DNA from: a virus
Virus record (IMG/VR): IMGVR_UViG_3300030118_005656
Span: 7,601 to 57,000 of that record
Length of the DNA stretch: 49,400 nt
Reading direction: 5' to 3' (one strand)
Part shown: positions 4,076-46,454 of the stretch, piece by piece
Layout of the letters: the number at the start of each line of letters is the position of its first letter
Position numbering within the stretch: the first letter of the stretch is position 1
The notes under the pieces: generated by a model
Told to the model about the DNA's origin: nothing
The model's input: the letters and a program-made list of their open reading frames with translations, nothing else
Database searches by the model: none
Program-made: the position numbers and the translations under genes

Positions 4076-4378
4076 ATGTCTAAAAACAAGAAAACGCTCC
4101 CAGTCGATCTGGATGCGTGGTTCAATGATATTTCCTCTGTAGAAGAGTTACGAAAGATCGTAAACTCCGATACTTTTTTGAAAGCTGCCGCCACTCTGAA
4201 AGAAGCGGCTGGGCCAAATTTTTCCAGCCTTGCTCAAGCCCCCGAGCAAAATGCTTTGCGAATGGCTTGGTATGCAGGTTATAGAGATGCTTTTACTGAC
4301 TTAGTTAAGATGACTAAGTTCCCTGTTAGTAAAACCAACGCCCCTGAAGAGTGGGATCATGTAACCTTAAATAACTGA
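4076..4378 (+). CDS. Small protein between portal and scaffold (100 aa)
   Basis: Unrecognised protein lying 3 nt after the portal and 1 nt before the scaffold gene. The C-terminal half carries NALRMAWYAGYRDAFTDLVKM, an aromatic amphipathic helix of a type often found in small proteins encoded between portal and scaffold in podovirus-like genomes. The tight spacing implies co-transcription and perhaps translational coupling. A head-assembly role is inferred from position only. Confidence 0.6.
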   Translation: MSKNKKTLPVDLDAWFNDISSVEELRKIVNSDTFLKAAATLKEAAGPNFSSLAQAPEQNALRMAWYAGYRDAFTDLVKMTKFPVSKTNAPEEWDHVTLNN

Positions 4379-4379
4379 T

Positions 4380-5570
4380 ATGAGCGAGCAAGAAGCAGTA
4401 GCCGAGCCTGTGGTTGAAGAAATCCCAGCCGTGGAGCAACTACCAGAAGAAACACCCATCGAAAATAGTTTCGAGGATGCGATTGATCGAGCTATGGATA
4501 GCTTGGACAACAATATCAACGGCGAAGCGCAACAACCCGAGCCTGAAGCCGCGGCAATAGAAGAGGGGAACGAAGAGTCCCCTGATTCCTATGACGAACC
4601 ACTCCCCGGAGATGACCTCGACGCGGAACTTACCGATTGGACACCCAAGGCTGCAAAACGGTTCAAACAACTCAAGGAAGAGCGGAAACAATACCGCTCT
4701 GAGTTAGATGACCTTCGCCAGAAGACCAGCCACTACGAGACCAAGATTCGAGAGTTGAGCGGTGGTGAAGATTCAATCGAGGCTCTCCAAGAGCGAATTA
4801 ACGAATATGAGAATGATCGTATGATCAATAATCTTGAGAAGTCTCAGGTTTATCAGGAAGTCATTGATATCCCCTTACGAGACACCGTGGCCGCTATCGA
4901 GGCTCTTGCTAATCAGTATAACCTAGACGCCGATGAGATCATAGAACTTGTTTCAGAGGAGAACGTAGATGAACCACCCGAGACTAACCCTGATGGGAGC
5001 CGGTACGTCACAAAGGACGAACGATTAGAGTCCCTTCTTGCTACGGCCCCACTTCGCGTTCAGGCTGAGATGCTAAATCAAATCAAGTATGTTGATGAGA
5101 TCTTTGACCGCCAAGGGGAACTATTTCAGAATGCAGAAGAAGCCCTCAAAGAAGCGGAACTTGTTGAAGAGGAGCGGAAAAATCAAGAAGCCTTTCGGAG
5201 GTCGCAAGAGCGTTCTGCTGTGACTAAGAATGTGTTGGGGCGAATTCAAGAGAAGATCCCCTTCATCAAGAACATGGACGGGGTAGACATGGAAGCCCTT
5301 ACTGAGGAAGTAGCCTCTGTTGACCCAATGGATACTCACTTGGTGGACCAGCAATACGCTTTTGCTGTGTCAAAGCTGTTCCCCTCCGTGATCCGTGAAT
5401 ACTTGTCCCTGCAACGTGAACTAGAGACCGTGACCGACCGACTCAGTGAATATGAGGACGCAGAGCCGGGATCAGGGTCCACGGTTCGGGGTTCAATGCC
5501 CAGCAGCAACCCCTCGTCGAAGGGTGAAGGCGGGTTCCTTGATCGGGTCAATGCAGCACTTGGTGGGTAG
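4380..5570 (+). CDS. Capsid scaffolding protein
   Basis: A 396-aa, strongly acidic protein (many Glu/Asp in residues 1-85) with a long central coiled coil (about 90-130, KAAKRFKQLKEERKQYRSEL) and further helical stretches at 255-290. It ends in a Ser/Gly-rich, then basic tail (SSNPSSKGEGGFLDRVNAALGG). Acidic, helical proteins encoded between portal and major capsid are the scaffolds that guide procapsid assembly, and the C-terminal helix usually contacts the coat protein. Assignment rests on composition and gene order. A terminator follows 51 nt after the stop. Confidence 0.75.
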   Translation: MSEQEAVAEPVVEEIPAVEQLPEETPIENSFEDAIDRAMDSLDNNINGEAQQPEPEAAAIEEGNEESPDSYDEPLPGDDLDAELTDWTPKAAKRFKQLKEERKQYRSELDDLRQKTSHYETKIRELSGGEDSIEALQERINEYENDRMINNLEKSQVYQEVIDIPLRDTVAAIEALANQYNLDADEIIELVSEENVDEPPETNPDGSRYVTKDERLESLLATAPLRVQAEMLNQIKYVDEIFDRQGELFQNAEEALKEAELVEEERKNQEAFRRSQERSAVTKNVLGRIQEKIPFIKNMDGVDMEALTEEVASVDPMDTHLVDQQYAFAVSKLFPSVIREYLSLQRELETVTDRLSEYEDAEPGSGSTVRGSMPSSNPSSKGEGGFLDRVNAALGG

Positions 5571-7455: not shown

Positions 7456-8373
7456 ATGGGGCTACCTGTAAAACCAACAGATATTATGGCTCTTAGCGAA
7501 TATCATAAAAAGAGGCTACAAGAAAAGATCCTTGAGATGTCTGATGAGGATCTTATCGGACTCGTCGAGGCCCAGTCCCAAACTGCTGGATTTAACCCAG
7601 ACGTCGAAGAACGACAAATGGTGGGCGTCCAGTATGCGAGAGGAACTAAGGCGGGGCGGAAAAGATACGAAGACGCTAAAGCTCTAGCGGCTGCCCGTCT
7701 AGCTGAGATGGGCGAAATGGTTGACGCAGAGCAGCAGAGACGTGCAGACCTCAGATCAGATGAAATTGATATACGTGAGAACGTCAAACAAGCTCCCGAA
7801 GTATCTCCCTTTGCACCAAAGTCCGTAATGGATAGAGATCCAGAAGAAGCTGGGATGAACCTCGCCGATATAGTTGAAAGGCGGCTTGCATTGCAACAAG
7901 CAATCGCAGACTCCGATGATCCTCAGATGCAGAGAGAATCAAGTGAGATTGACTCCGAGACCGCACCCACTGTTCGTGATGACGAAGATATGCGGGAGGT
8001 ATCTCGCAATAAAGGAGATAAACGCGCAAAAAGGCGAGCGAGGAGAAAAGAACGAAAAAGTCAATTACCTGAGCCACCCGAGGAGAATACAGCAATAGAT
8101 TTTGTAGGAAAAGCCGAGCCAAGTGGTAGCCCTCTGATAGGGACAGATGATATCAAGGTGTCAGATCCTATGTCGGAGCCTATGTCAGAGCCCATGGTAG
8201 AGCTTAGTGAAGAAGAGGCTGGGCGTCTATTTAGGCTTATCATGGGCAGTTCCTTCGACCCTGTGTCATCAATGGATAAGGGTAAGATGGAAATACTGAA
8301 GAAGGCAAAAGCCGAGAATCCTGATCTCACAGACAATCAACTCGCCCTCAAAATCTATCGCGATTACATGTAA
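7456..8373 (+). CDS. Charged virion-associated protein of unknown function (305 aa)
   Basis: No family recognised. Highly charged and probably largely disordered in the centre. A basic patch (RNKGDKRAKRRARRKERKSQL, about residues 185-205) is followed by the short repeat DPMSEPMSEPM (about 237-247). The last 60 residues form a more ordered helical segment (EEEAGRLFRLIMGSS). An alternative start is the ATG at 7486. The stop overlaps the next ATG by one base, so the two genes are translationally coupled. Position suggests a head protein. Confidence 0.55.
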   Translation: MGLPVKPTDIMALSEYHKKRLQEKILEMSDEDLIGLVEAQSQTAGFNPDVEERQMVGVQYARGTKAGRKRYEDAKALAAARLAEMGEMVDAEQQRRADLRSDEIDIRENVKQAPEVSPFAPKSVMDRDPEEAGMNLADIVERRLALQQAIADSDDPQMQRESSEIDSETAPTVRDDEDMREVSRNKGDKRAKRRARRKERKSQLPEPPEENTAIDFVGKAEPSGSPLIGTDDIKVSDPMSEPMSEPMVELSEEEAGRLFRLIMGSSFDPVSSMDKGKMEILKKAKAENPDLTDNQLALKIYRDYM

Positions 8374-17384: not shown

Positions 17385-17685
17385 AGTTAGGAAAACAAAA
17401 GAGGGCAAGAACCTAAAGAGGTGGTTCAAGGAGAAGTGGGTAGACGTACGCACTGGTAAACCGTGTGGTCGGCGTAAGGGCGAAAAAAGAGGGACTCCTT
17501 ATTGCAGACCCTCAAGAAGAGTAAGCCGAGAGACACCTAAGACCTCTAAGGAAATGACAGCATCCGAGAAGCGAAGCAGGATCAGCCAAAAGAAAAGTCT
17601 GGGGCAACCCGCTGGAAAGCCTCGGAGAGTGAAATCCCTGCGCCGGAAAAGACGCAGAGAGTCCATTAAGCGAGCTAGATCGTAG
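17377..17685 (+). CDS. Small basic protein related to DUF5872-like phage proteins (102 aa)
   Basis: Residues 12-55 (LKRWFKEKWVDVRTGKPCGR, then GTPYCRPSRRVSRETPKT) match a recurrent small viral module with paired Cys. The rest is Arg/Lys-rich. The gene overlaps its upstream partner by 8 nt, and its stop overlaps the converging primase-helicase stop by 11 nt with no terminator between the opposing operons. Probable DNA-associated virion protein, by composition. Confidence 0.6.
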   Translation: MPRVRKTKEGKNLKRWFKEKWVDVRTGKPCGRRKGEKRGTPYCRPSRRVSRETPKTSKEMTASEKRSRISQKKSLGQPAGKPRRVKSLRRKRRRESIKRARS

Positions 17686-19849
17686 CTCCGTTTACATTCT
17701 GGGCAATGTCGTAGCACTCAGCTACTCCAACAGTCCAGATTTTACCGCCCCCGCTGCCTATCGACTTAACAGGCCGCAACTTTTTATTGCTTTTGTGTGC
17801 CTCCTCCATGGCAGCCATTCCTCGTCGGACGAACTCTAAGTTAGAAGATTGTCCTACGTGTCTGCCGTTATTGTATTCTTGAACGAGAACTTGAAACTGG
17901 GTCACCGTCCCCTTCCACTCTACTGCGCTACTCGCAGACCTGTGGTGGATCGCAAAGAACTCTACAAGTTCTGCAATGGAGGATCTACTTGAGTTGTCAT
18001 AAGCGGCACTGGCGATTGCTTCGTCGATATAACTCTCGATACCAAACCGCGAGTAGACCTCGATGTCTTGGGGCACTTTCCAGTCAAGGATGTAACGACA
18101 GAAGTGGGGCAACTCCTTATCTATAGTCTTCTCCACTACGTGATTTGGCGGGAACTTGCTAGTCGCGGAGTCACTGATAAGTAACGCCAATAACTTATCA
18201 CGGTTCGATGAGTCTAGGGCTGGGATTACAGACAAGCTGTTCGCATCCATGTTCAAGGACATTATAACTCTACCAGTCCATGGGATGTTCACGGCATCGA
18301 CGTACTTAGCGTGGTATTCGATTCTTGGGTTGGCGACTGCTCGTTTAATAAGCTCAGTAGCTTTCCTTTGATCTGAGAAGTTAGCCGCTGACACCGTGTC
18401 GTCAATAACCCAAGCAGGGAAGCGAGCTAAGTCTTTATTGAACTTAGTCTGCCCCGACAGATAATCTGAAGCATCCGCCAGACCCCCAACCATTGCTGAG
18501 ATTACCTTATTCGACAAAAGTGACTTCCCTTTGTTGGTGGGTCCAACAAGCAAGAGTGCTTGCCCCTGACAGAACTGCCTGTCCAAAACAGCCTTGTAGA
18601 ATCTCTTGAGCCACGCATACAGGTAGTCTGTTGCAGGTCTGGGCTTCCCAGAAGAGTCTCTCGCCGTAGAAAACATCTGAGACAACCACTCGTTGATAAA
18701 GGGCCACAGAGCAGGGTCGCCGTCCTCGTCGGGTTCAACGGGGCTAATTGAGGCACTGTTAAGGATTCGGTGGCCGTTGTGAATTACGATTCTGTCTTTG
18801 GAGAACACTACGGGAGCGATCTCATCTACACGGTTCTGGTTTGAGATGGCTAGGATTGCGTTGTCCATCTCCGAAAGGTTCTGCCCTTTCTTAGGTTTGG
18901 TCGAAAAGTTTGCGGCCCTCAACTCCAGTATCAGTTGATCTTTAGGTATAGATACTGACATCCCATTCAGGACTTTGAAGAATGACTTGCCGTTGAACCA
19001 GTATTCCCCAAGGAGGTTGCCCATTTTCTTTTGCTCGTATTTCTCTACGAACTTCCGGCCAAGTATCTCACGCCATGTGAAGAAACCTTTACCTCCCCTA
19101 TCAGAATAACAGATAACCCCGTCATCTGAGATCTGGCAACCCTCTCGATCTACACCGTCGTTAATCCAGAATAAGGGTCCACGGGAACCTACCTCAAAGT
19201 CCCCGAGCCACCTGCCGGGGAATGATTTCTCAACTTCCTTGGCGATCTCCTCCATCGGTATTGTTGTATCCGATGACTCGGGTGGGCGGTTCCCAGCCGC
19301 TTTCATCAGCGCAGCCCTTACAGTGTCACTGCTCACAACACCCCCCGTCGAGATCCAGTCAGTCCCTATTTCAAAATACTGGTTAGGCTTGTAGCTCGCT
19401 TCGTCAAAACCCGCGATAGCTTTTGGGGCTTTGATCACACGGGCTACCTCTTTTATGAACGGGTCATATAGAGACGGGTCGATTGGTAGGGTGTCTTCAA
19501 ACTTCCAGATAAAACGAGCGTAGCCGCTAAATGTCTTGTTCACCCAAGTCGGCGCGATATTGAACGCAGCGTTAGCGATAGCCTCGATACTAGACCAGTC
19601 TAGGGGTGCGTCGTAGTCGGCAATAAACCCAGAACACTTGTTGACGGGGTTGCTGTTAGATATTCTCTGAGACGGGGCATCACCCTCGCAATAAGAGATA
19701 AATAAGTGGTCTGTGTTTGCGTTGGCGCACCAGTCTCTGAATTCAGCTTTTGAGTCAAATTTAGGTTTTGTCTGCGCGTTCTTAGCTTTCTTCTCTGGGT
19801 TGCTAAGTTTCTTGGCTTCGTTGCTTCTAAGGTTTCTAATGTATCTCAT
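17675..19849 (-). CDS. Primase-helicase (AEP-like primase plus SF3/D5-type helicase)
   Basis: A 724-aa replication protein. The N-terminal part carries GFIADYDAPLDW (residues 74-85), a D-x-D motif typical of archaeo-eukaryotic primase-like domains. The C-terminal AAA+ domain has Walker A GPTNKGKS (436-443), Walker B WVIDD (480-484) and a candidate arginine finger in DSSNRDK (546-552). It would prime and unwind DNA at the fork. Its ATG overlaps the polymerase stop (TAATG), so both are co-translated on the minus strand. It is the last gene of that operon. Confidence 0.8.
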   Translation of the reverse strand: MRYIRNLRSNEAKKLSNPEKKAKNAQTKPKFDSKAEFRDWCANANTDHLFISYCEGDAPSQRISNSNPVNKCSGFIADYDAPLDWSSIEAIANAAFNIAPTWVNKTFSGYARFIWKFEDTLPIDPSLYDPFIKEVARVIKAPKAIAGFDEASYKPNQYFEIGTDWISTGGVVSSDTVRAALMKAAGNRPPESSDTTIPMEEIAKEVEKSFPGRWLGDFEVGSRGPLFWINDGVDREGCQISDDGVICYSDRGGKGFFTWREILGRKFVEKYEQKKMGNLLGEYWFNGKSFFKVLNGMSVSIPKDQLILELRAANFSTKPKKGQNLSEMDNAILAISNQNRVDEIAPVVFSKDRIVIHNGHRILNSASISPVEPDEDGDPALWPFINEWLSQMFSTARDSSGKPRPATDYLYAWLKRFYKAVLDRQFCQGQALLLVGPTNKGKSLLSNKVISAMVGGLADASDYLSGQTKFNKDLARFPAWVIDDTVSAANFSDQRKATELIKRAVANPRIEYHAKYVDAVNIPWTGRVIMSLNMDANSLSVIPALDSSNRDKLLALLISDSATSKFPPNHVVEKTIDKELPHFCRYILDWKVPQDIEVYSRFGIESYIDEAIASAAYDNSSRSSIAELVEFFAIHHRSASSAVEWKGTVTQFQVLVQEYNNGRHVGQSSNLEFVRRGMAAMEEAHKSNKKLRPVKSIGSGGGKIWTVGVAECYDIAQNVNGATI

Positions 19850-21715: not shown

Positions 21716-22333
21716 TTAAGAAGAGATAGTTTGAATAAACTTCGAGATATCTTCCTTAACAGGTTCAGCGGTTGGCTTCAGGGACGGGGCGTACCAACTA
21801 TGTGGACCTCGCTGGATCAGGCTGCTCTTGAAATCCCATTCAACGGAGCTAACGCTCTTGTCGGGATTCCCTGCTGCCCAAGTAGCCAGCACCTTATATG
21901 TCTGTCTGTATGCGTCCTTATGGACGTGGATCTTACCAAGAGCGCAGAAGTCATCGCCTAAAGGGAGAGGAAAGGCTGCTGGGTCTGGCTCCTCTTGGTT
22001 AGAGCGAAAAAGAAAAGTTAGTTCAGCGAACTCAATAACCTTGAACTCAGAATCTTTCCTAAGTTCTTCCGCTTCAGATTCTGTGTTAACCATGCGAGCC
22101 ACTGTTTCAGAGCCGTATGGTATATCTTCCTTCCAACCCTTAGTTGGATTAATTACCGCAGCGCGAATGGCTTCATCGGCTTCAGACAGAGTGAACTCCT
22201 TACCTAGAACGATAGCACCCACAGGTGCATCGATGGATGAAGTCTTTTGTACTACGTTAATTCGAGGGATGTCGATGTCTGATGCAGAGATCAAGAACCC
22301 CGACTCATTTGCTTTGCTTAGTTGTGTTGACAT
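21716..22333 (-). CDS. Probable phage ssDNA-binding protein (205 aa)
   Basis: I do not recognise a firm family. The central part is beta-rich (GKEFTLSEADEAIRAAVINP, later LGKIHVHKDAYRQTYKVLAT). The N-terminus begins with MSTQLSKANESGFLISASDI, and the C-terminus is acidic to polar. It sits between nuclease and polymerase genes, followed by a strong terminator, as expected for a highly expressed stoichiometric replication protein. The SSB function is inferred from context and expression signals, not from a motif. Confidence 0.45.
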   Translation of the reverse strand: MSTQLSKANESGFLISASDIDIPRINVVQKTSSIDAPVGAIVLGKEFTLSEADEAIRAAVINPTKGWKEDIPYGSETVARMVNTESEAEELRKDSEFKVIEFAELTFLFRSNQEEPDPAAFPLPLGDDFCALGKIHVHKDAYRQTYKVLATWAAGNPDKSVSSVEWDFKSSLIQRGPHSWYAPSLKPTAEPVKEDISKFIQTISS

Positions 22334-22377: not shown

Positions 22378-23238
22378 TCACGACAAAGTGAACCTTTCCT
22401 CAGACGGTGTGATGATAGACTCTCTTTCAAGACTGTCAAGAAATTCAATTCTTTTTTCTTTCTTCAAGCCCTTGTCGGCTTTTTCCTCAATCTTTTTAGT
22501 TAGCTTACCAAGAGGTATGCTCGCGATCTCCAGTATGTCCTCCTTGTTGATCCCGAAGTCTTCTGCCGTTGTGATCAATGCTCCGTTATCAGAACATTTC
22601 TTAGCCGCACCCATCGATTTTAGGCGTAGGCTAGGGAGGGAGACTTCGCCATCTTTTACTCGGTTCACTAGGTTTTTGCGAAATGAAGTCGCCCAGTTTG
22701 TAACTACTTTAGCGATAGACCACAATGCCTCTAAGTCTTCAGGATCTTCGTTACCTGATATATCAGGGACCGCAGACCCGAGTTTGTCGGCCACATTCAA
22801 AATCATTCCGCCAAGAGCGGGGCACGACTCTTCGTAGTGGCAGAACCTACAGTTTTGATTCGGGTTTAACTCATCTAGAGATGGAGATCCAGAAGACCAC
22901 TTTGACCTTACATAAGTTCCTCTTGCTATGACATTACTCACCTCTTCCCTTAGTCTGGGTAGGTCTTCACGAGAAAATGTGTGATTCGGAGTATCATCAT
23001 AGAAAGGTATGTAGAAGACAAAGGTCACCTCGTCTAATTCAGGAAACTTATCGAACACACCGATTGTATACGCCTTGGATTGCCAGTTCTCGGACGGGTG
23101 ATCAATCTGTGAAACTCCTGTTTTGTAGTCAGCCAGTAAAGCTCGTGTCCCTTTTATTGTTAGCCTATCACACGTTCCGAAAGTAAATAGGCCGTAATTT
23201 AAGTTTATGTCCAGCCGGATTTCGTTGTAATCAGTCAT
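22378..23238 (-). CDS. Cas4/AddB-like PD-(D/E)XK nuclease, C-terminal piece
   Basis: Residues 20-45 contain FGTCDRL (D24) and LLADYKTG (D37, K39), the core of the PD-(D/E)XK active site; QSKAY (53-57) is motif IV. CRFCHYEESC (130-139) gives the CX2CX5C triplet of Fe-S RecB/Cas4 nucleases. The family's N-terminal Cys and GxxxHE motif are missing here but present in the ORF at 23720-23968. The two small genes between suggest a split enzyme. It would resect DNA ends for recombination together with the helicase and RuvC encoded upstream. Its start overlaps the preceding stop by 8 nt. Confidence 0.75.
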   Translation of the reverse strand: MTDYNEIRLDINLNYGLFTFGTCDRLTIKGTRALLADYKTGVSQIDHPSENWQSKAYTIGVFDKFPELDEVTFVFYIPFYDDTPNHTFSREDLPRLREEVSNVIARGTYVRSKWSSGSPSLDELNPNQNCRFCHYEESCPALGGMILNVADKLGSAVPDISGNEDPEDLEALWSIAKVVTNWATSFRKNLVNRVKDGEVSLPSLRLKSMGAAKKCSDNGALITTAEDFGINKEDILEIASIPLGKLTKKIEEKADKGLKKEKRIEFLDSLERESIITPSEERFTLS

Positions 23239-23488
23239 TATTTAATTCCTCTAGGTTAAGGGCTTTCTCGAACTCTTTAACTGATCTATGATTTACCCTA
23301 GTCCATTCGCAATCATTAAATTTCTTACAAAAGGTAGAGTAAAGATTTTCTAGGGTTCCATCGTTCCATTCTTCAAAGTAGCCAGAAAGTTTTCTTAGTT
23401 TTTCTAGGTCTTTTACTTTCATTCGACTAAACCAGTCGCCGATATCTTCAGAGTGCATTCCCATATCTAGCGTTCTTCTAGCCACCAA
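23231..23488 (-). CDS. Small protein inserted between nuclease halves (85 aa)
   Basis: Unrecognised. Helical and charged (GDWFSRMKVKDLEKLRKLSG), with a Trp-rich start and an acidic tail. It overlaps the upstream 83-aa gene by 22 nt and the nuclease C-terminal piece by 8 nt, so it is tightly coupled in the operon. It may be part of the nuclease complex or an unrelated inserted gene. Confidence 0.5.
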   Translation of the reverse strand: MVARRTLDMGMHSEDIGDWFSRMKVKDLEKLRKLSGYFEEWNDGTLENLYSTFCKKFNDCEWTRVNHRSVKEFEKALNLEELNND

Positions 23489-23718
23489 ACAGATCCTTTG
23501 TTTGCATTATTAAATTTTTCCCTTCGCAGTCTCCTAGAGTCTCTCGACATGACTAGTTTTTCTTTAATTTCACTTAGGGTTTTCGAGATACTCGTAGTGG
23601 TGGGCCATTGAATCTGTTCTTCTATCTCAGCTATGTGTCTTTTTTTACCATCGGCGAGTAAGTCTAGTAGTCTGTCGCGTAGGGCGGGGCGGTTTCCATA
23701 TTGTAGTTTTGTTCTCAT
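23467..23718 (-). CDS. Small winged-helix-like DNA-binding protein (83 aa)
   Basis: The sequence RPALRDRLLDLLADGKKRHI followed by QWPTTTSISKTLSEIKEKLV has the helix-turn-helix spacing of winged-helix domains. A basic wing (RDSRRLRREKF) and a C-terminal Trp pair follow. It begins 2 nt after the stop of the nuclease N-terminal piece. It may bind DNA on behalf of the split nuclease or act as a regulator. Assignment is by pattern only. Confidence 0.5.
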   Translation of the reverse strand: MRTKLQYGNRPALRDRLLDLLADGKKRHIAEIEEQIQWPTTTSISKTLSEIKEKLVMSRDSRRLRREKFNNANKGSVWWLEER

Positions 23719-23719
23719 G

Positions 23720-23968
23720 CTACCCTTTAAAGTCTTTTAGAAAATCAAATTCCATCTGAACGATCTTCTCGTAGATCCCCAACTCTTCTTCGTCGCGGAG
23801 TGCGCTAGGGTCATTGACTTCCAGAGCCTCGTGGATACGAGTTCCTTTTTCTGCCGCCTCAGAAGTTCCTTCTTTGCCTTTAAAACCGGGACAAGCCTTG
23901 ACATACTTGAGGCCGCTAGGACCAAATTCGGCGTGTGCCCGTTCGCTGTGATTTATGCTATCTGCCAT
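23720..23968 (-). CDS. Cas4/AddB-like (DUF2800-like) nuclease, N-terminal piece (82 aa)
   Basis: The HAEFGPSGLKYVKACPGFKG segment and the following SEAAEKGTRIHEALE match the N-terminus of DUF2800/RecB-type nucleases (HxxxSPSxxxxxxxCPGS ... SxxAxxGTxxHExxE). They supply the N-terminal Fe-S cysteine (C26) and motif I. The ORF then stops, and the rest of the domain is in the ORF at 22378-23238. Together the pieces make about 368 aa, near the normal family length. Overlaps the helicase stop by 11 nt. Confidence 0.65.
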   Translation of the reverse strand: MADSINHSERAHAEFGPSGLKYVKACPGFKGKEGTSEAAEKGTRIHEALEVNDPSALRDEEELGIYEKIVQMEFDFLKDFKG

Positions 23969-25283
23969 TGTTCAATGTGTTTATGTTGTTTATTTTACTT
24001 TTAAGAGATTTGATAACTGACTCTTCTATCGTCTTGTCAGCATAAAGAACTTTCTGGATCGCATCCGATTTAGCACCGTTCCGGTGAATCCGACCCAGAC
24101 ATTGAAGGTGGTCCTTAGCTACATAAGTGGGAGAGATTATCGATACGCGCTGCCGTTCTCCTCGAACATCATGCAAAGAAACCCCCGTTCCTCCCGCAGC
24201 TATATTAACGACTAGAGCATTATCCTCGTCCCGTTGAAACCTGTCAATAGCTTCCTGACGCTCCGCTGAGTTTTGTCTGCCATCGATCTTGAGGCACTTG
24301 AGCCTCTCGACCAGCGCATCAACTGTCTGGGTGAAGTTAACGAAGACGACTACATTCTTCCCTTCTAGTATTAGATCTTCCGCCATTTCAGCGATATCGG
24401 GGGCTTTGAGTGATTCGGACAACTGACGCGCTCTTAATATATTAACTAAAACTATGTTATCCGAGTTTTCCACCGTGCCATTCTCGATGTAATCGGTCAA
24501 GATGTCGGGTGTTATGTCTAACTCTTTGAATGCTTTCTCAATCTGCTTTGCCTTCGTAAACTGAACCGGCTCATAAAAGACCATGTTCTCTCTGAAGGAG
24601 TCGGGGAAGTCTGATGTCTTTAATCGACAAGCCCGTGCTTCTTCGGATCGAAATAAAGTGTCGTGCATTTGGGTTAACTTTGGGTTTACACCGGACCTAG
24701 CTCGACAGAAGTCCCACTTGCCCCAATCGTCTATAAAACACCCGTTTTGCTTCATCCAGCCATAGAAGGACCGTTTTGCCCCCTTGGATTTATTGAGTGC
24801 GTGAAGTCCGAGGGCAAACCCTAGACCACGCATCTCAGTGGGGTTCTCTGCTGCGGTCGCACTCATCGCGTGAGTGGTGAATTTCTGAAGAGTTAAAGAG
24901 ATATACAGTTGAGCGTTCTGAGTGTATGGCCCTTTGCACTTATGAACTTCGTCTAAAAGAACAAGAGTGTCTTTCGGGATCTTCCAGTTCATAATGGACT
25001 TCCCTATCTTTTTCATATATGGGGTCCGCCCACCCCGTATCTTCTCGTAATTGAGAATGAACAGAGGCTCGACACCTGTCTCGGATAGTTCCCTTTCCCA
25101 AGAAGGTATCACCGCTTTAGGACAAAGAACCGCTACTGGGCCACCCCAGTGTTTGGCGAGGTGTGCTGCCACAACAGTCTTGCCTGTTCCGGTAGCACTC
25201 GCATCCAGAGTGTTGAACCCTGCATCTATCTTACTAGTAAAAAAATCTAAGGCTTCTAATTGCTTCGGATATAATTGCTTCAT
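23958..25283 (-). CDS. SF2 (SNF2-type) DNA helicase
   Basis: A 441-aa helicase. Counted from the ATG at 25283, Walker A ATGTGKT is at residues 30-36, the DEVH box at 111-114 and motif III SATA at 141-144. Motif V is in the NIAAGGTGVSL region, and motif VI in HLQCLGRIHRNG. It remodels or unwinds DNA using ATP, probably supporting phage recombination and replication. An in-frame GTG at 25301 is the alternative start. It is encoded between the resolvase and the split nuclease. Confidence 0.9.
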   Translation of the reverse strand: MKQLYPKQLEALDFFTSKIDAGFNTLDASATGTGKTVVAAHLAKHWGGPVAVLCPKAVIPSWERELSETGVEPLFILNYEKIRGGRTPYMKKIGKSIMNWKIPKDTLVLLDEVHKCKGPYTQNAQLYISLTLQKFTTHAMSATAAENPTEMRGLGFALGLHALNKSKGAKRSFYGWMKQNGCFIDDWGKWDFCRARSGVNPKLTQMHDTLFRSEEARACRLKTSDFPDSFRENMVFYEPVQFTKAKQIEKAFKELDITPDILTDYIENGTVENSDNIVLVNILRARQLSESLKAPDIAEMAEDLILEGKNVVVFVNFTQTVDALVERLKCLKIDGRQNSAERQEAIDRFQRDEDNALVVNIAAGGTGVSLHDVRGERQRVSIISPTYVAKDHLQCLGRIHRNGAKSDAIQKVLYADKTIEESVIKSLKSKINNINTLNNGR

Positions 25284-25333
25284 TCGGCGGAATGATCTCA
25301 CGTTTCCGAAATAGAGTCAATTATTTTTTTGTC

Positions 25334-25846
25334 TCAATTGGAAAAAGCTGATTTCTTTCTCCAGTATTCGGCAATTAGATAGGCGTCTATCATCCCGTCG
25401 TGGGGGATAATGGCTCTCTCGCTCTTGGTCCAATCTTCGTCGGGGCAAAGAGATGAAGCGACTCCCAGTGCTGCTTCTTTCGTTTTACCCTTGGGGACAG
25501 TTCCCAGCATTTCTTTCTGCCACTCCCTGACTGTTATGGGGTTAACCTCCCACATACGCATCTCGCAAGCCCCTAACAGTTTACCAAAGTTTATAGCCAT
25601 GGAGCGAACAGCTTGGGAACTCTTGGCATGGCGCAGCGGTTCCTCAATCACGAAACAGGGTTCAGTATTCAGTTCATTTACCCACCTCTTCACGGCCATC
25701 AAGTCGATTTCACTTTTACCATCCCGCTTCAGGGTCGGCATTACTATCTTTGATATGATGCGACCCCGACATCTTGAAATCGCACACAACCCTCCGCTGA
25801 TGCCATTATCGACACCGACGATCATGTCGGAGTATGTGGTAGTCAT
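25334..25846 (-). CDS. RuvC-like Holliday junction resolvase
   Basis: A 170-aa RNase H-fold protein with acidic residues in the expected order: D13 in IVGVDNG, E68/E69 in FVIEEP, and D150/D154 in PHDGMIDAYLIAEY. It would resolve branched replication intermediates before packaging. It lies 6 nt after the DUF3310 gene and upstream of the helicase in the same minus-strand operon. Confidence 0.85.
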   Translation of the reverse strand: MTTTYSDMIVGVDNGISGGLCAISRCRGRIISKIVMPTLKRDGKSEIDLMAVKRWVNELNTEPCFVIEEPLRHAKSSQAVRSMAINFGKLLGACEMRMWEVNPITVREWQKEMLGTVPKGKTKEAALGVASSLCPDEDWTKSERAIIPHDGMIDAYLIAEYWRKKSAFSN

Positions 25847-31278: not shown

Positions 31279-34200
31279 ATGGCCTCTCCCTATATTCTAC
31301 CCACATACCTTGACACTGAGGAACTGGAGCCGGAATCGGAACCAAGTTACAAGAAGTATACCGATTGGTTGACGGAGGAGTTAGGAAAGGACAACCCAAC
31401 CCTTCCCGCCCTACTCAAAGTAGATGACGCTAACCCGGAAGACCCTCACGGAGAATACGTAAAAAGATACGGCCAGTACCTCGCTGATACTTTCTTGGAC
31501 ACCGGAGAATACTCTGAGGAACATACTGTCAAAGATATTTTTGAGGCTCAAGTAGGTCTACTGAGGAGAAGAGGAGTTTTGTCTGACGGGTCGAACCCCG
31601 AAGAAGATGAAATTACTATTGATGCTTTAAAGCTCTTCGGGCCTAAAGAAAAAGATTTTAACGAGATCACGGGCGACGTCCTAGATTTTACGGGTCGAGA
31701 TATTGGGGAGGGCTTCCGAGACGCCGCTTCTGTCTATAATGGATACCTGCAAGAGGGTCTCTTAGATACCGAACAGGGAATCGAGGCCCGAGAAAAGTTT
31801 GAAGCAGAGCTTTCAAACCTCGAAAACAGGAACGCGCTAGGCCGAGCCATGGTCAGCGAGAGGCTGGATGATCCCATCAAAGGGGTAGCCTTTGCCGAGA
31901 TAAAAAGCGTTGATGAAGACGGCGAGGAAAAAGTCGATCTGTTCTACCCGCGACCAGTCCCCGAGGACCAGCTTAAGCGAGAAATCAAAAAAGCTCTAGA
32001 TAAGGGAGTTATCTCTTATGAGAGCGTACCCGAGATTTTGCGGCTATCAAAAGTCCCCAAGACATCGGGAGGCATGACTATTCAGGAAGTTTTTAGATCT
32101 CGTGAGATCGAGGCCGCACTCCAAGAGGATGACCTGAAACCGTACTTAGATCAGTTTACCAAGTTAGCAGAGCTTAAGGCTGCTGAACACTATTTGGAAA
32201 CACACGAGGGGGCCACTGCACCCAATCTTATAGAAAAAGCCGAAAAAATCTTAGACACTTATGAGGCTAAATCAGAGCTAGGAAGATTTGAAGACAGAGA
32301 GGGCGGGGGACTTGATGCGGATATTCTTGCTGAGACGATAGCTTTTGAGCTAAACAACCGTCGAGACGACGAAGGAAACTCTTTACTAGATACTGGAGAC
32401 GTCGTTACCCAAGAAGAAGTCAGATCTTTTGTCGATATTATGTCGGCTAGGACGGCGATGAATTATACGGAGTATGTTGACCCCAACGATTTTGAAGGCG
32501 CTGCAAAGTCTAATATCATAGCTCTTCCTAGCGGAGAAGTTGTAATACACCCTAAACTTGTTTACCAAGAGGAACATTTTGAGAAATCTTTGGCGGGATA
32601 CGATGACGTTCTGACCTCTGAAGAAAAAGAAATGGCGAGGCTAAAACGAGAAGTCTTGATGGAAGGGTATGCTTCCGACACAGATAAACAACTCCAAGAG
32701 CTAGAGGAAGACGAGGATTCTTACATAGAAGGGTGGGTGGAGTTCCGTAACGCCGAGAGAGATAAAGGGGCCAAACTGCCCGAGATCATTGAAAGTTATC
32801 TGGGAGACGAAGATAATTTTAAAGAGTTTGAAATCAGGAGCGGCGGCGTCCTAGGCTCGCTAGGTTACATGTTTAAGGGAATAGGTTTAGCACTACCTGC
32901 GGTGTTAGGCAGCGAATCAGCTAAAGACTATTTTGTAGAATTTGAAAAAAATAACGCCAAAAGGCGAGAAATAGCTAACTTGTTTGGTCGTGACCTCGGT
33001 TTTCGTCAGGACTTGATGGAGGGCGTAGCTCCTCTGATCGCTGATGCTTTTGTGACGGGAGTATTGTCATTTTTTACGGCGGGTCTTGGTGGCGCGGCGT
33101 ATGTAAGTGCTAGGGTAGGGTCACGAGTAGGAATCAAGGCGTTAACAAAGGCCATGGTTACGGGGTCACTCAAAGAGACCGCAGAAAAAAGCGCACAAGA
33201 TATCGTTCTCAGAGAGTCACTAGATGGGATCTTTGCCGCTGGAAGAGCAGGGAAGTCACTCAAGATGACTAATGATGAGGCTCTCAGTATTATCAAAGGG
33301 TTCAACGAAGCTCGTGCAGGAACTAGCACTTATGGACAACTGACTCGGACTCCCGGCGTATTTATTGGGGCAGCTAACCGACAATCCGGTATGGCATACT
33401 CTAGCACGTATACCGCTCTGGAGGGGCAGACAAACCCTGAAACAGGTGAAGAGTACACCCCTGAAGAGCTTAGGAAAATATCTCTAGCTTCAGGTTTGAT
33501 ACAAGGATCAATCACAGGTCTGCTAGTTTCGGCCTTTAGCCTTGCTAAGTTGGGTGGTTTGGAAGACTTATTCTTGTCGGGGGCAAATACATCTCAAATT
33601 TTAAAAGCGATCAACAGCTTTGCCAGCACGAAAGGGTTGTCTGCGAGTGTCAGAGGTAAACTTACTGAAGACAACTTTAAAAAAGTAGTAGCAAGCAACC
33701 TTAAAAAAGTCATCAAAGATAGTGGCTTAAAAGGCTTGGGAGTTGCGCAACGCATTCCGGGCGCATTAAAGACAGGTGTAAGAGCAGGTCTGGAGGAATT
33801 TCCAGAGGAAGCACTGGATCAGTTTGTAAACGGAATTGTTCAGGACGCTTTCACGGGTCAAGATACATCTCTGTTTCAGCGTCTCAAAGACTCATTCTAT
33901 GCTGGAGCTATCGGGGGTGTATTGGGATTATCGGCAGGAACTGTCCGAGGCATATATGACAAAGTATCAGGCAAGGCCACCAGAGCTACCCAACAGACTA
34001 TTAGAGAAATGGAGACCAAGCTCTCCGATAGAGTAGCGGCAGAACTACAAGAAAGTGGCAGCCCGATCACCGCTGATGTCGTTAGGACGATCTTAGAAGC
34101 ATCTAGTGGGCGGAAAACGATACCTGTTCCCGTAGGCGACGGAACTGCCCAGATAACCGCAGGTCAGTTGTTGGAGGCCACGCTACCCGCTTCGATAGAA

Positions 34201-37200
34201 GAAGTTCAGGAAACAGAAGCAGCGATCCAACAAGCCCTTGAGGGTGAAGAGGACGCTTCCGCGACAGTGGCCCGAGGAGGTCTCGACGGGGAGCCAGCAG
34301 ACCCCGACCTCGACGACAGCAACAGGGTGTCTAACCTGAATGATAGGTATAAGCCAAAATCAGAAACCGAACAAGAAAAGAGCGACATCCCTGATAGCAA
34401 AAAGGAACAGGCTCGGGCTAAAGGAGTAGACCCCAACAAAGCTAAAGTTAAGAAAGCCTCACCAGACACTGCTAAAAACCGGAGCAAGAAAAAAGCAGAG
34501 AAAGACCAAAGAAAAAAAGCGAAGCAGTCAAAAAGGCGGTCAGATACCGCCAAGAAGATGCGAGCTAGGAACAAAGCGAAAGCTCAAGAGGCCAATGAGA
34601 GAGCGCAAGCAAAGAAGATGCAAGCAACGCCTAGAAGAAAGGCTGCTCCTAGAAAGGCCACTACGCAGAAAAATAAAGAGTCGTTTAATAATGTCGATGA
34701 GAAAAAATTTGGCACAAAGTTTAAAGCAGTCGCTGAAGAGAATGCTACTTTGTTAGATCTATTAGAATCGTTGGCAGTATCGGTGTATGTCGTTGAAGAC
34801 TTCGAGCAAGCAAAAGCAGTTGCTAAAAGAGACGTCGAAGATCGAAAAGGAACGTCTTTTAAAACTACAATAGACGGCAAACCAGCCATCATTATGATGG
34901 CTGATCGGATAAACAGAAGTGACGGCAAGAGAAACACTAAAGGGGCTAGAAAGAAGTTACAACAGACTTTATTCCACGAAGCGATACACGCCAGCCAAGA
35001 TACCTTTGTTACTGAAACAGGTAACCAAGAATTAGTAGTGCAAGCTGCACAGATATTCGACCCGAAGAGTGAGTCATATGATAAGGCGATCACCGAGTTC
35101 ATGCAGAAGGAGTATAAGAACTTTAATGATCTATCCCCAAATCAGAAAGTTGCTGAACTCACCCGCGCTATTGTTGAAGGCAGGACTGATAACACAACCA
35201 GCGGCGCGTTGTCTCGCAGCGTAGTTTTCAAAGCCTACCTGACTAAATTCTTAGCTTACATTAAAAATATTTTTAGTAGTGTTGAAGGCGAAGCCGCCAG
35301 CCCTGATTTAGAAGCACTACAAACTCTGGTCGTAGGTATTGAAAAAACCATGGGCCTAACAACAGAAGATACTTCTGCCAGAGAACCAACTAACGAAGGC
35401 TTACCAGAAGCTCCCCCTAGAAGAGAGTCACCTGAAAAGACTACCCCTAGATTATCTTTTAAGTTAAACGAAGATAACGAAGTAGAGTTGATATCATTTT
35501 CCCACGGAAATGAGTCGTATTTTATAAAAGCTGACAGAGATGGCATCTCTGGAATGGACGCGACAACTTCTCTTAGGGAACCCGAACAAGCTCGACCGAC
35601 AGAAGATTTGCCAGAAACTGCTTCAAAACAGAAAAAACAAGCCAGACAAAATCTAGAGTCTCAGTGGGCTGCGTATGACGAGGCCCAAAGAAAAATCTCT
35701 ATCATTAAAAGCACAAAAGACTACAGGGATTTTGATAACTACAGGGAATCATACTTACTTATGCTAGATATCCTCGGCCCCGAGGTAGCAATTGGGGTCT
35801 TTAGTGCTTACTCGTCCCCCGATTTTAGTAGTCAAATAGAATCACTTTTTGGGGATGTGGCTGTCATAACAGGAGGCCCAAAAGATCCGACCACTGACAC
35901 AGGTAGAGCCATCACTGTCCGCAAACTTGGAGAAGACGGGGAATTCACGGAGATTGAATTAACTAGTGCGTCCACCAGTGTAGGCAAAGTAGGCGACCAA
36001 AGAGTGCTAAGAGCTAAGGACGGCGATAATAACATCAGATTCAACGAAACTGGGCAATCTACCGACGCTGACGGAAACCCAGACGGCAAGTATGTCGTGG
36101 TCGCAAAAGAGTCTCCCTTCATAGCCCTGACTGGGAAAGGGAAGATTAACCTTAATGGTACGACTCGAGTTAGGGTGGGGGATGTTATACAGATTCAAGA
36201 ACGACAGGACAGTGAAGATGTTTCGCAGTTTACGGTTACCCGCATGGTGCTTAAAGGGGATAGCGTTGACAGTGTTGACTTACTGCCTTACACCGAGACG
36301 CAAGAGCAAGACGCCGATCTTATTAAGGAACTACCAATAAAAGAGCTAAAAAAGAACTTTAGCGTCACAAGGTTTGCCAGCAGATATCTTGGAACCACTC
36401 AAGAATATGAGCAAGGCATAATAGATGAAAGGGTTGATCAAGAGCTTAATCCCAAATTTTCGTTTGAGCAAAGTCTCAATCAATACTTCAAAAAATTCTT
36501 CAGTGTTCTAGATAAAAGAAAAGAACAAAAAGATCCGTCTGCTCTTCAGGTTTTCAATAACCTGACCCCAGAGGAACAAACGACTTACAATAAAGTCAAG
36601 AGCCTTGTGGAAGAACAAGAAGGCCAAAGAAAACTTAAGATAGAAGAAGAGCCTCTTTTTAGGGACACCCTGTCGTTATTTAAAAAATTAGTGGATGTAG
36701 GGCCAGATGATAAGGGGCGATCTATTGGTAGTTTGAAAGACAAAACCTTAATAGGTAACTCCATCCTTAAAATAAGCCAAGATACAAAAAGAAAAGCTGA
36801 GAGAAAAATCTCACCCCCGGTAAGAAGAGGTGCTGCTGAAGATTTCCGACAAATGGCTATCGCCGCTTTGGGTGACACTAAACTTTTTGAAGCGACTTCC
36901 GAAATATTCAAGCCTTATGACGGAGATCTTGATTTTGTCGAACAGTTAGCGTCGTCAGAAGAGAACAATATAGAGAGAGCAAAGCAAAAACTAGTCGAGT
37001 ATATAGTTAACAACGCCATCAAAGGTGGTTATCGCTGGCACTCTTCTACTAACGTAGAACAATCCGCTAGAAGGTTTCCTAGCGATCTCCGGGAAATCCT
37101 CGTGTTGTTAGGGCCACAAAGGCTAGCTAAAATAAATGAGGCAATAAATGGTATAATAGCTGAAAAATATCCCGTGCTTGATTTTGTAAAAACCCCTCCG

Positions 37201-40200
37201 GCAGGGGCTGTTAAAAAAGGAGAACTGTTTGTAGATAAAGAAAATAACCTAGTTGCCTTCGATAATAACCCCGTAAATATGGCGAGGGCATTGAACGATA
37301 AATATACCGTAAAGTTTAGTGTCCACGAAGAAGGGGTAGAAGATCCCCCTCCTAACAGCGTGGCTAAGAGTGAGATTAACCGTGCATTCAAATATGAAAG
37401 AATATTCAAGGATGAATCAGGGACAGTTTTTTACAAACTAACAGAAGTATCGGCCACCTATTTCCCAGTTAATGGGATACCAGAGATTATCCCCATCGTC
37501 ACAGAAGACAAGCAGGTCATCCAGCTAAACTTCGAGAGAGACCCCGAGAGCGTGAAAAAAGTGGGGGCTGCTTCTGATGTTATACTAGAAAGAGAAAGTG
37601 TTTTCTCTGGTGTGTTAGCAGATGGTAACTTTTCGGCTTTTGCCACGATCCCGCGAACTGAATCCAAGTCCAGTAAACCCGATTTCAAAGTTAGAGGTAA
37701 GTCCAAGGATAGAGAAAGAGGACGCACAGGTAAAGATAAACTAGATGTCTCTATTCTTTTAGCCGAGTTGGCAGAGGCAAGTGATGCGGAACTTGAGGAG
37801 GTAGCAGTCACGGTTGGTCAAATGACGCCCGGATCAGTTATAGATAACGCTTATCAGGCAGCGAGTGTAGTAGCCCTGAATGATTTTATGGCGAAGTGGT
37901 TTCGTGCGAAACTTAATAGCTACGTTGATCTAGTAGAGACAAAAGATTCTAAGGGAAGGACGACGCAAAGACTTGAGTATGACCACGACACAGTAGTCGA
38001 CGAGCTACTAAAACTTAAAATACAAAAGAAAAATAAACAGAGTGAAGAAGTGTCGTATTCTGTATTCTTGGAGTCTGAAGGTAAATTTGTACTAGATAAT
38101 TATGACGGCAAGGATACTACAGAAGAGCAAGTTAAGGCTTTTATAACAGACGTATACCGCAACAGGGTGAGTTCTAGAAAAGGGTTTGATAAATCAATCC
38201 ACTTGGGGAAAACACAAGTTAAAGGAATATTTCAAACCAGACTAAGTGCAGAAAACGAAGCGTCCAAAAAGAGATACGAACTTCCAGTAGTATCAACGGA
38301 TCAGGATTTAGAGATAGAAGGCAACACCGGAGGTTTTAACCTACTAGATATTCTGGACCCCGTCTTATTAGAACCTCTTGGAGCTACCGCAGAAGGAAAA
38401 GAAGCACCCGTTACCAGTGCGCCATTACAAAGAGTAATCTATGATGAGTCCTCAGAATACGATTCTGTATCGGGCTTGGCGTTGACGACGGAAGACGTAG
38501 CTTCCGAGACGCCGGTAGATTTCCCCACCGCGCGACAACAAGAACCCGCTTTCCGACACGTAGTCCAAGGCATAGCCGCCCACTCACCCGCAGCAAGGAC
38601 ACAGGGGCAAACTGTTGATGGGCCCATTAGAATAAACGTAGGGGACGAAATTGTATCTTTTGTTCTCAAGAGACCCGACCCAGAAACTGGAGAGACCGCC
38701 CTCGTTACTCGGGATGCGCGTGAACTATCTCCAGTAGACGTACAGAATATCATATTCCGAAGCGGAAGCGACGACTCAACATCAGAGAATTTTTCCGATG
38801 TCGAGTCATTCAAAGTTGTTTTCCGAACACCGAGATCTGTAGACCCGGTATCATCTGGCTTTATTGATTATCAAACCCCTAGAGATTTAAGAGATTCTCA
38901 AAGACGAAGACAGAGAGAAATTGAAGCTGAGAACTATGAGAGATACGGCAAAGATAACACCATAGCTTACCGCATAGCGGAGTCTATTCGCACAAACCCA
39001 CGTTTACTGCGCTCTGTTCTCATCGACGAAATCGGACCCGAGGGGATGCGTGAATTGAGAAATCTCTACAATAAGTTTAATGAAACTGGAAGAGATCTTA
39101 AACCTACCGACCCTGCTGACGACATCACACGAGGGCTTACTGATGAAGATGTAATAGGATTACTACTACAAGTTCAAGAAAATGCCTCGGTGGAGTCAGA
39201 TAGTGCCAGAGCTAATGAATTCAATGCCCTGTTTAATAATGTGCAAGCCAAAGACACTAAGACTGCTAGGGGACTTAGTACTGTTCGTAATTTGTTGAGT
39301 TCAGTCTATCGCGCTGCGGTAGCAACATATAATGGGACAGATATCAGCGGCGCTTATGATCTTAGTCTTGATCCCGGGATTGGGGGTCAGCTACCCCTCA
39401 ATCAGATAATTGAAAAAGCCCTAGAAGGTTCTGACGTAGAAATTGACCTGAGTCAAATTAATCCAAATGTTAGAGACTATTTAGTTAACACGGTTAGCGA
39501 GCGCCTACTTATCTTATTCGGTACGAATGTACAATCTGAACTCAGAGCTAAATCTACGGCTAAGACCGTCGCCCAAAGAAACGCGGCCCAAGAAGCGAAT
39601 ACAAAAGAAGCGGAAGAACTCGGACTGGAGTCGGGCGACCCCGAGTCCGTTAAGAGGGCGTTCAAAAAGATTGTTAATAATACAGACTACCCGCTGTATC
39701 TTCAGGCGACTGCACAAGCACTACTCGACTCGGAGACAGCTTGGGTAGATACCAAGTTCGTCATGGCATCTTTTTACGGGCTGGATGCGGCTGGACTCTT
39801 CAACAAAGAAAACAATACAGTTACCCTGAACCTCCGTGGGACTAACGGAAAATCTTTAGCTAGCGTTCTGATTCACGAGTATATCCACGCGATAACTCAC
39901 GAGGCGATCAGTAACCCCACGAAAGCCGAAAGTCCTGTGGTTTCCAACTTGAGAAATTCCTACGAGGAGATCAAAGAACTATATGAGAAGTCTGAACAAG
40001 GGGTTCGCAGTATCGAGATGGATGAAGGACTGTCCAGCTTGGATGAGTTTATCTCTTACTTCTTTACGAGCAGCACTTTTCAAAATGAGATCAAGTCCCT
40101 CGCGGCGAAAGTTGGCGACACCGTAGCCCAGAAAAAGAACTTCTTTAGGAGGACCATCGACGCGATACTAGATATCATAGGAATATCTAAAGCAGATAGG

Positions 40201-43200
40201 AGAACTACTAGAGTTTACGACCAGTTGGTAGATATGCTTTACTACCTCCCGAGAGGTGAGGGATTCCGTCTTAGAAGTAGCTTTTCTAAAGCTGCTGGGC
40301 AAGCGGGGAAGGATTTAGCTAAAGAAGATAAAGAACGCCGTAGATCCAACGAGATCACCGAGAGACTCGCACCGCTGCCATCTGCTGCTGTGCCTGATGG
40401 CGATGAAAAATCGCGACCTTCGGCCTCTTCCCCACAAGACCCGAACTACCGGACTATAGAACCATTAGATACGGAGAGACAAAAGTTGGAGACTCAGGCG
40501 TTAGTGTCTCGCGTAAGACAACTAGGAGTTGTCCCCGCCGAAGTTCCAGTGTTGGTTGATTACAACTACCCGCACCCCTTTGCTATCGAACCGTCAGGAG
40601 TCATGGTTATTAACCCTGAACGACACCTGAATGACCTTTTAAATCTAGATATTGATAGCGGCACACCAGCCCATGATCTTTACTTGGAATCTGTTTTGGA
40701 CCAAGAGATGGCCCACGTTGCCGACATTAACTCTTTGTCCGAGAAAGATATTATGGACTTTGCTAAGACCTTGTCTGACGCAGAGTTGACTCGGATGGGG
40801 GAAAAGTATTTCCTCAACCCGAAATACGAGTTACCCACCGACCCCACTGAAAGAAAAGCAGCCGTTAAACTTCTGACTTCCGAACGGTTACGGATGACCT
40901 TTCAAAATGTTCTTCGTGGCAAAGAAGGAGACACGGAGAGTGTTATAGCTTATCTAAAATCGTCCAACAAGACTAAGTCACTAGAGGCTGCTTACTTTGA
41001 CCGAGCTTTGTCCAGCCTGAGATACAAAGCGAGGCTGAAGGCACTATCTCCAAAAGAGAGAGTTTTGATAACCCGCATGATCGCCGAGCGGAGACGCATG
41101 GCACTCAACTATCGATCCCCTAACCCCTACGCGACACAAGGACTTAAAGGTGAAGCCCTAGAGAGAAACGTAGAAATCCTGTTGTCACAGGCTAAGACAG
41201 ACTCTGAAGATGATCTAGAAGAGAAAGCCAAGAAGATAGCAGAGGAGAAAGAAGCAAAGAGGAGTAGCAAGACGAAAGTAGAGTTCGCAGACCAGAACGA
41301 ACACTACAATTTCAATCTAGAAGCTCCCGTGACCGAAACTCTGTCTGGGGATTTCCTAACTACGTTCAACCTCACCCTCGCAGTCCGAGAGGCCAAAGAT
41401 ATTTTGGGAGGAACAAAGGAGTCAACGAGGAAGAGAAAAGTTGAACTGTTAGTTGCCCATTATTTATCTGACTTACCAGAAGACTCAGGAGTGTCCGCCT
41501 CCGTTATCGGTGGCATTGGGGCTTCCACCCCCGATGGATCAGGGGAGCCGACAGTTCGTGTCGATGTCTCCGCTGACAACGAAGCTGCCCTAGACCAAGT
41601 CAGGTCTAGGATGTATGCTCTGGCGTCGCTTTTACAGCAGCAAGAACTCCACGAGATCGAAGTGTTATCCGTGCCCGATGGGGTGGATATCGAATATGGA
41701 GTTAAAGAGGGAGGGTTTGAAGACCAACCCGCAGGAATTATTGAACTCGACAACACGGTCAACCTCGCCCTCGGCACTCTAGATATCTACATCAGAGATG
41801 CTGGGCTAGACGGGTATACTTTCACAGGACAAGAAATCTTAATCTACAACACTACCACGGACATCGACCCCAAGGAATTCACCAAGAAGGTGGGGGAGGT
41901 TGCCAATAACATAAAAACACAATTCATCAATGACATCCAAAAACCTATCGGAGGCGTTCGAGCAACTAGCATCAGACTTAGGCGTACCAGTAAAGAAGGC
42001 GACAGTTCCAGAGAAATCAAGAGCTACGAAGAAGGTTACCTTCCTGATGGGGCTGAAACCTCCGAAGAAACAAGAGCCGCAGCCAACGCCCGAACCACAG
42101 TTGCCCGAAACATCCTTAGAAATACCGGAGGAAGAATCACAAACCCCGTAGGAACACAGAGACTTCTGTTTAGTGGGGCAGCCTTGTCCCCTGAACGGAA
42201 AGCCCTACTTACAAAGTTAGCTGAAATCTACGATGAGCTACCTACTGATGATGGGGCCGCGCAGACTAGAGAAGCGTACGACAGCCTTATCAAAAAGACT
42301 ACGACCAAGTTTAGTAATCTATTTGGCACAGGTCGGGGTAAAATAAAAGTAATCGTCACTGATAGCAACCCTTACGCAGATCAAGAAAGTCTGGTAAATG
42401 ACATTAGGAACGGTCAAATAAAGATCCAGAAGAGTAGCCCCAGCCCAAGTGACACCCACCCGATGTATGCTACCATCGACGGTCTGGATGCTGTTAATGA
42501 GAAGGGTGAAGGAGTCGCTATAAACGGAGACGACGCACTTCGCGCATTGTTCCGATTCGCACAGCATGGGATTACAGGGTCTGTGTCGCCTGAAGGTGCT
42601 TATACCTACCTTGTTTCCATGTTCTCTGATGGAACCCGCACCGGCCAAATGGCCGCGTGGGCAGCCGCCACGGAGATAAGATCCGAGGAAGCCTATAAAA
42701 GGTTTGGCCCGGAGAACGACAAGAACCCCGGCGAAGAAGGGTATGTTCCCGTCCCCGAGAGAAAAGGACCACCTAAAAAAGCAGCCCTCCTTCCGTTGGG
42801 CCTTGCAAAGACAGGTAACGAAGCTGTGGATAGTGGGCTGGATAATCTCGCTAGATCTCTAAGTGATACTGACGACGATCTCTTGAAAGGTAGTTACAAG
42901 CCTAAAGAGAAAGTTGAAGCTCCAGCCGATACCCCAGCTACAGCCCCACAAGGGCCAGCACCTCTAGCAGCATCACGAGTCGTGGGTGAAGAGACCCAAC
43001 CGGACCAGCCGACACAGGCCGAACCCACTGTAGACACCGTGGAAGAAACCGTCCCATACAGGCTACCTGCACCCGAGACTGATTACACACCCTTCTTTGA
43101 GACTTTCGAGATGCCAATATTTGAAGTGGGGACATACAAGACACCTTCTAGTACTTTCACTAAAGCACTTATGGGGCCATATGATCGACGAATCCGTCAA

Positions 43201-46380: not shown

Positions 46381-46381
46381 G

Positions 46382-46454
<73 letters not shown>

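Follow-up and report, generated by a model that had tools for sequence, protein, structure and literature searches.

A phage replication operon in which two short open reading frames (ORFs) resemble the two ends of one nuclease raises the question of whether the enzyme has been broken or is made as two chains. In Cas4 and AddB, a RecB-type active site lies next to an Fe-S cluster that is held by one N-terminal and three C-terminal cysteines (PMC3466216). From the sequence, a first-pass annotation had proposed a nuclease of this kind split in two, with two small genes between the halves, and had considered either a multi-subunit complex or a nuclease broken by insertion. The locus lies in the window, which is the whole stretch of 49,400 nt analysed here (positions 7,601 to 57,000 of IMG/VR virus record IMGVR_UViG_3300030118_005656); the source record comprises 57 kb and the phage family is aquatic. 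On the minus strand, the replication operon reads in the following order:

25334-25846, minus strand: RuvC-like gene, assigned by eye
23958..25301, minus strand: SNF2-type helicase (Helicase_C, 1e-12), directly upstream of the nuclease with an 11-nt overlap with the start of the N-half; the same neighbour is present in intact-gene phages
23720..23968, minus strand: nuclease N-half, 82 aa, with the putative cluster cysteine C26 and motif I GTRIHEALE including His46 (phrog_69, 2e-4); aligns over its whole length with the N-terminal region of 113 intact homologues
23467..23718, minus strand: H, 83-aa winged-helix protein according to its AlphaFold model, common to all split loci
23231..23458, minus strand: E, 75-aa protein without assigned family, with an invariant CX5C; kept in the window and in loci L098, L115, L126 and L118
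22378..23238, minus strand: nuclease C-half, 286 aa, with D24, DYK (D37/K39), QxxxY (Q53/Y57) and C130/C133/C139 (DUF2800, 3e-17; PDDEXK_1, 4e-6; phrog_69, 4e-27)
21716..22333, minus strand: 205-aa gene, equated by position only with the Gp2.5-like ssDNA-binding/annealing gene of Bacteroides phage BT16
19849..21633, minus strand: family A DNA polymerase (phrog_17, 1e-79)
17675-19849, minus strand: primase-like gene

As described before, the genes between the halves overlap their neighbours or lie a few nucleotides from them. Neighbouring genes in most split loci likewise overlap by 4-11 nt or are spaced by a few nucleotides, and the overlaps suggest coupled translation. The 205-aa gene is 97% identical to its copy in L098, with a dN/dS of 0.02. 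For E, an 85-aa ORF had been reported; the ORF exists, but its start was misplaced at an upstream TTG, and homologues favour the ATG at 23458 (75 aa) or the one at 23452 (73 aa).

The coordinates and residues assigned to the two nuclease ORFs were correct, with C26 and GTRIHEALE in the 82-aa ORF and D24, D37-Y38-K39 and C130-X2-C133-X5-C139 in the 286-aa ORF. In the profile search that had been suggested as a check, both ORFs matched DUF2800/phrog_69 models and the C-half also matched PDDEXK_1, above the cut-off of that model. Matches of the C-half begin well inside the models (position 106 in DUF2800, 126 in PDDEXK_1 and 193 in phrog_69), and those of the N-half lie at the model start (phrog_69, 2e-4; DUF2800, 0.1, positions 1-60). 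With the DUF2800 model (PF10926), the C-half reached 63 bits against a cut-off of 21 and the N-half alone 12 bits, which is below the cut-off, while the intact syntenic homologue in L010 reached 284 bits. The pairing is not due to chance, because 113 distinct relatives encode both stretches side by side in a single ORF, and these homologues identify the 82-aa ORF as the nuclease N-terminus and not as a member of another family. On the basis of homology, the two ORFs were confirmed as the two ends of one DUF2800 phage exonuclease.

The motif set of RecB/Cas4-like PD-(D/E)XK nucleases is complete across the pair, with the motif I histidine (H46) in the N-half and the motif II aspartate (D24), D-x-K (D37, K39) and QxxxY (Q53, Y57) in the C-half. 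The motif I histidine is catalytic in the RecB/Cas4 family. The four-cysteine pattern of Cas4 and AddB is also present and invariant (C26 in the N-half, C130/C133/C139 in the C-half); conserved cysteines and active-site residues are indeed divided between the two chains, as had been claimed. A sequence search of the PDB with the intact nuclease and H returned no convincing match, the nuclease-like hit being a weak one to the PD-(D/E)XK entries 9iac/9iab. The four-cysteine site could hold zinc in place of an Fe-S cluster; a DUF3799 structure binds zinc (PMC3466216).

To place the split among relatives, we used the polymerase, the N-half, H and C-halves as queries against IMG/VR, which yielded about 210 loci. 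Profile HMMs found both nuclease parts in one ORF at 153 of these loci and in two ORFs at 44. After removal of duplicates and fragments, the set comprised 113 intact and 12 split nucleases, all distinct, the latter representing 18 contigs and the window. Whether relatives share the split had been raised as a check, and 12 distinct relatives are split at the same point. Sequencing error as the cause was rejected because 18 further contigs carry the split. The intact gene (about 370 aa) occupies the same neighbourhood as the split form, and the order helicase, nuclease, 205-aa gene, polymerase is common to both kinds of locus. The two parts are separated by 1-15 residues (3-45 nt) in intact genes and by 467-1802 nt in split genes, with about 3 kb in L189. 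An intact, syntenic DUF2800 protein of 370 aa was also found in the public record MW202898. A second record, MW202897, seemed to be without an N-half, but its gene is annotated from too late a start; the 432-aa ORF is intact and syntenic. None of 39 pattern matches in bacterial genomes was confirmed as a relative, and a scan with the C-half of L099 recovered only L099 itself.

A structural model of an intact homologue (L119, 40 sequences, mean pLDDT 83.7) predicted a helix at residues 61-82, a five-residue loop and a strand at 88-98. This loop, which joins helix 3 to beta strand 1, is where the N-half ends and the C-half begins, and no conserved residue is lost at the cut. Foldseek matches of the same model included AdnA/AdnB, Cas4 SSO0001, EXO5, MGME1, RecE and AddAB, at modest TM-scores (query-normalised up to 0.43).

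The history of the split was followed in trees of the single genes. In unrooted trees of the C-half and of the helicase, a branch with SH-aLRT support of 96 and 90, respectively, separated all split forms from the remaining sequences. A single split clade is also compatible with the N-half data (p-AU 0.43). A quick tree of the polymerase alone distributed the split phages over three groups, but three separate groups were not upheld, since one clade was not rejected by the test (p-AU 0.53). The single C-half clade fits one ancient split, and the split state is old because split C-halves are down to 52% identical to that of the window, a difference of up to 48%. One insertion is the simplest reading; as the trees are unrooted, an insertion rather than a later fusion is favoured because intact genes are far commoner and also occur in distant phages. 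No integrase, homing endonuclease or intron footprint was found at the split loci, and the gap proteins scanned gave no HNH, GIY-YIG or LAGLIDADG match.

Joining of the two ORFs at the RNA or protein level, by an intron, an intein or a frameshift, would be another way to obtain one enzyme from this locus. This is very improbable, given that an Rfam scan of the window region and 8 split loci detected no intron and that the gap contains conserved ORFs and intervening stops at a length of 467 nt to about 3 kb. The stop codons in the gap exclude a cis-intein, and a programmed frameshift was rejected, as the gap is too long and variable and has other genes inside.

Both halves are under strong constraint. 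Values of dN/dS were 0.04-0.11 for the N-half and from <0.04 to 0.14 for the C-half (Nei-Gojobori; synonymous sites are often near saturation), compared with 0.02 for the adjacent 205-aa gene. Of the positions conserved in at least 98% of intact genes, 12/12 split genes retain 25 of 25 in the N region and 35 of 38 in the C region. Invariant in 12/12 split and 113/113 intact nucleases are C26, G42, R44, H46 and E50 of the N-half together with D24, D37, K39, Q53, Y57, C130, C133 and C139 of the C-half. The ratio of N to C divergence in split versus intact pairs was 0.61 vs 0.61 and 0.66 vs 0.64 at C distances of 0.35-0.55; at C distances of 0.2-0.35 it was higher in split pairs (1.09 vs 0.63, from only 5 split pairs). 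The agreement at the larger distances makes a loosening of selection on the N-half improbable. A nuclease that was broken by insertion and whose fragments are decaying, the second of the two early proposals, has the break itself in its favour and nothing more. It is contradicted by the dN/dS values, which point to strong purifying selection, by the full conservation of residues, by a relative rate as in intact genes and by the deep age of the split clade, and we regard it as hardly credible. Most likely, the pair is a working two-chain enzyme, with the motif I histidine and one putative cluster cysteine on the short chain and the DYK site and three cysteines on the long one.

H was described as winged-helix-like from its sequence, and this agrees with its AlphaFold model (H1-H2-H3-beta-beta, pLDDT 76), whose best Foldseek matches were mostly winged-helix proteins at E values of 0.06 and weaker. 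Pfam and PHROGs gave no significant family for H, E or the ~217-aa gene of L098. In every split locus, H lies immediately upstream of the C-half or is separated from it only by E, and it is absent from 23 of 23 long intact-gene records. Its dN/dS below 0.1 indicates purifying selection. E was not found in the split lineages searched other than those listed above; its five aligned sequences share an invariant CX5C pair.

Two roles for H have to be weighed. The chances seem even that it has nothing to do with the nuclease and is a regulator or a leftover of a mobile element that caused the split. Its fold resembles MarR/ArsR/LmrR-type regulators (weak Foldseek matches), and in L099 a paralogue fused to a stretch resembling a zinc finger is encoded upstream of the N-half; however, the position at the C-half has been kept through deep divergence (split C-halves to 52% identity), and neither H nor E has a recognised endonuclease or integrase domain. 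It is a tentative possibility, on the doubtful side, that H (with E where present) is an obligatory extra subunit of a three- or four-chain enzyme, in which it would hold the halves together or aim the nuclease at particular DNA. The constant association with split and not with the long intact-gene records, the purifying selection, the persistence of H while other gap genes turn over completely and the gene overlap, which suggests coupled synthesis, are all consistent with such a subunit. With one origin, however, the association is historically a single event, retention may reflect another function or coupling of C-half translation, and H has diverged more quickly than the two halves, with 73% identity between the window and L098 where the halves have 84-87%. 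The multi-subunit complex of the first-pass annotation is supported for the two nuclease halves only, not for the winged-helix and 75-aa proteins as members. L099 encodes a second H-like winged-helix domain (E 1e-20) at 4221-4904. It follows a CxxC...CxxC segment and lies shortly before the N-half, whose start is overlapped in another frame.

Apart from H, the content of the gap differs between loci: E is found in the window and the L115 groups, a ~217-aa gene in L098 and L004, small ORFs in L184 and L186, and a SprT-like gene (weak match) in L099. By eye, the 217-218-aa gap gene at 5267-5923 of L098 shows a methyltransferase-like ETGTFLGRGT motif. The gap of L189 (1771-5228) holds genes for QueD, QueE, a nucleoside deoxyribosyltransferase and a phrog_15826 protein, which look like cargo for 7-deazaguanine DNA modification. 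The phrog_15826 protein has a very weak match to queuine tRNA-ribosyltransferase. Outside the gap, L188 matches L189 at 100% identity over 2,017 nt on one side and 99.4% over 3,759 nt on the other, but its gap differs and lacks all four genes. L185 is a mosaic: the part with the helicase, the N-half and the 217-aa gene is 99.5% identical to L004, and the part with H, the C-half and the polymerase is 100% identical to L184. Its junction lies in the gap (3220-3300), where there is no long shared sequence, and it is either a natural recombinant or a chimeric assembly; if it is not an assembly chimera, halves of different lineages have been combined in nature. Variation is not confined to the gap: the spacing from helicase to N-half differs between loci as well, also among intact genes.

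Taken together, it is probable that a one-piece exonuclease was cut by an H-bearing insert and that the two chains re-associate into an end-resecting nuclease. The ancestor would have been a DUF2800 exonuclease of ~370 aa, encoded between the SNF2 helicase and the probable ssDNA-binding protein. Inserted DNA with the small gene H would have cut its gene in the loop between helix 3 and strand 1, and translation would now stop and restart at the cut, giving two proteins from one overlapping operon. The chains are predicted to associate during or after translation and to rebuild the fold, with His46 and C26 from the short chain and the metal-binding D24/D37/K39, QxxxY and three cysteines from the long one. 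Nuclease activity should require both chains because the cysteine set and the active site are divided between them, and neither alone is expected to give an active, cluster-bearing nuclease. During replication and recombination of the phage, the rebuilt exonuclease may resect DNA ends. After the split, the gap would have gained and lost further genes, with H always kept. A stronger version, an obligate multi-chain machine with active site and cluster at a two-protein interface, H as a required third subunit and the gene interior as a dock for exchangeable cargo, is unlikely.

Split phage enzymes are already known. Genes in pieces in T4-like phages include Aeh1 NrdA, a ribonucleotide reductase (mobE insertion), the T4 topoisomerase gp39/gp60 (mobA) and the DNA polymerase gp43A/B of Aeromonas phage 25; the split chains work in NrdA and gp43, for which reassembly of the halves was shown, and the inserts are mostly homing endonucleases, with an untranslated insert in 44RR gene 43 (PMC2988022). 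The split nuclease resembles these cases in that a replication-enzyme gene is cut by inserted DNA, there are relatives with the gene in one piece, and the two halves are conserved. In contrast to their homing endonuclease inserts, it has a constant winged-helix insert with changing cargo and is a cluster-type enzyme. With the DUF2800/phrog_69 phage exonucleases (PF10926) it shares motifs, four cysteines, neighbourhood and predicted fold, but these are encoded elsewhere by one gene and here by two non-adjacent genes. SSO0001 Cas4 (4IC1) and AddB have the same RecB-type site and one N-terminal plus three C-terminal cysteines; Cas4, however, is a single chain and AddB a domain of a large helicase-nuclease subunit, whereas the split nuclease has two chains.

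In the open-access papers searched, we found no report of a split in DUF2800/Cas4-like enzymes, of a divided cluster or active site, of a constant winged-helix partner or of changing cargo. At this locus, a PD-(D/E)XK nuclease of the cluster type is split in nature. Since neither chain has a complete active site or cysteine set and more than 100 intact relatives serve as controls, two-chain assembly of cluster and active site is testable. The split enzyme also bears on what prevents reversion to one piece, and the turnover of gap genes, with probable DNA-modification genes in one phage, on module exchange inside replication operons. Elsewhere in the window, positions 31279-46380 form one ORF of 5,033 aa, directly followed by a tRNA-Met (46381-46454, minus strand).
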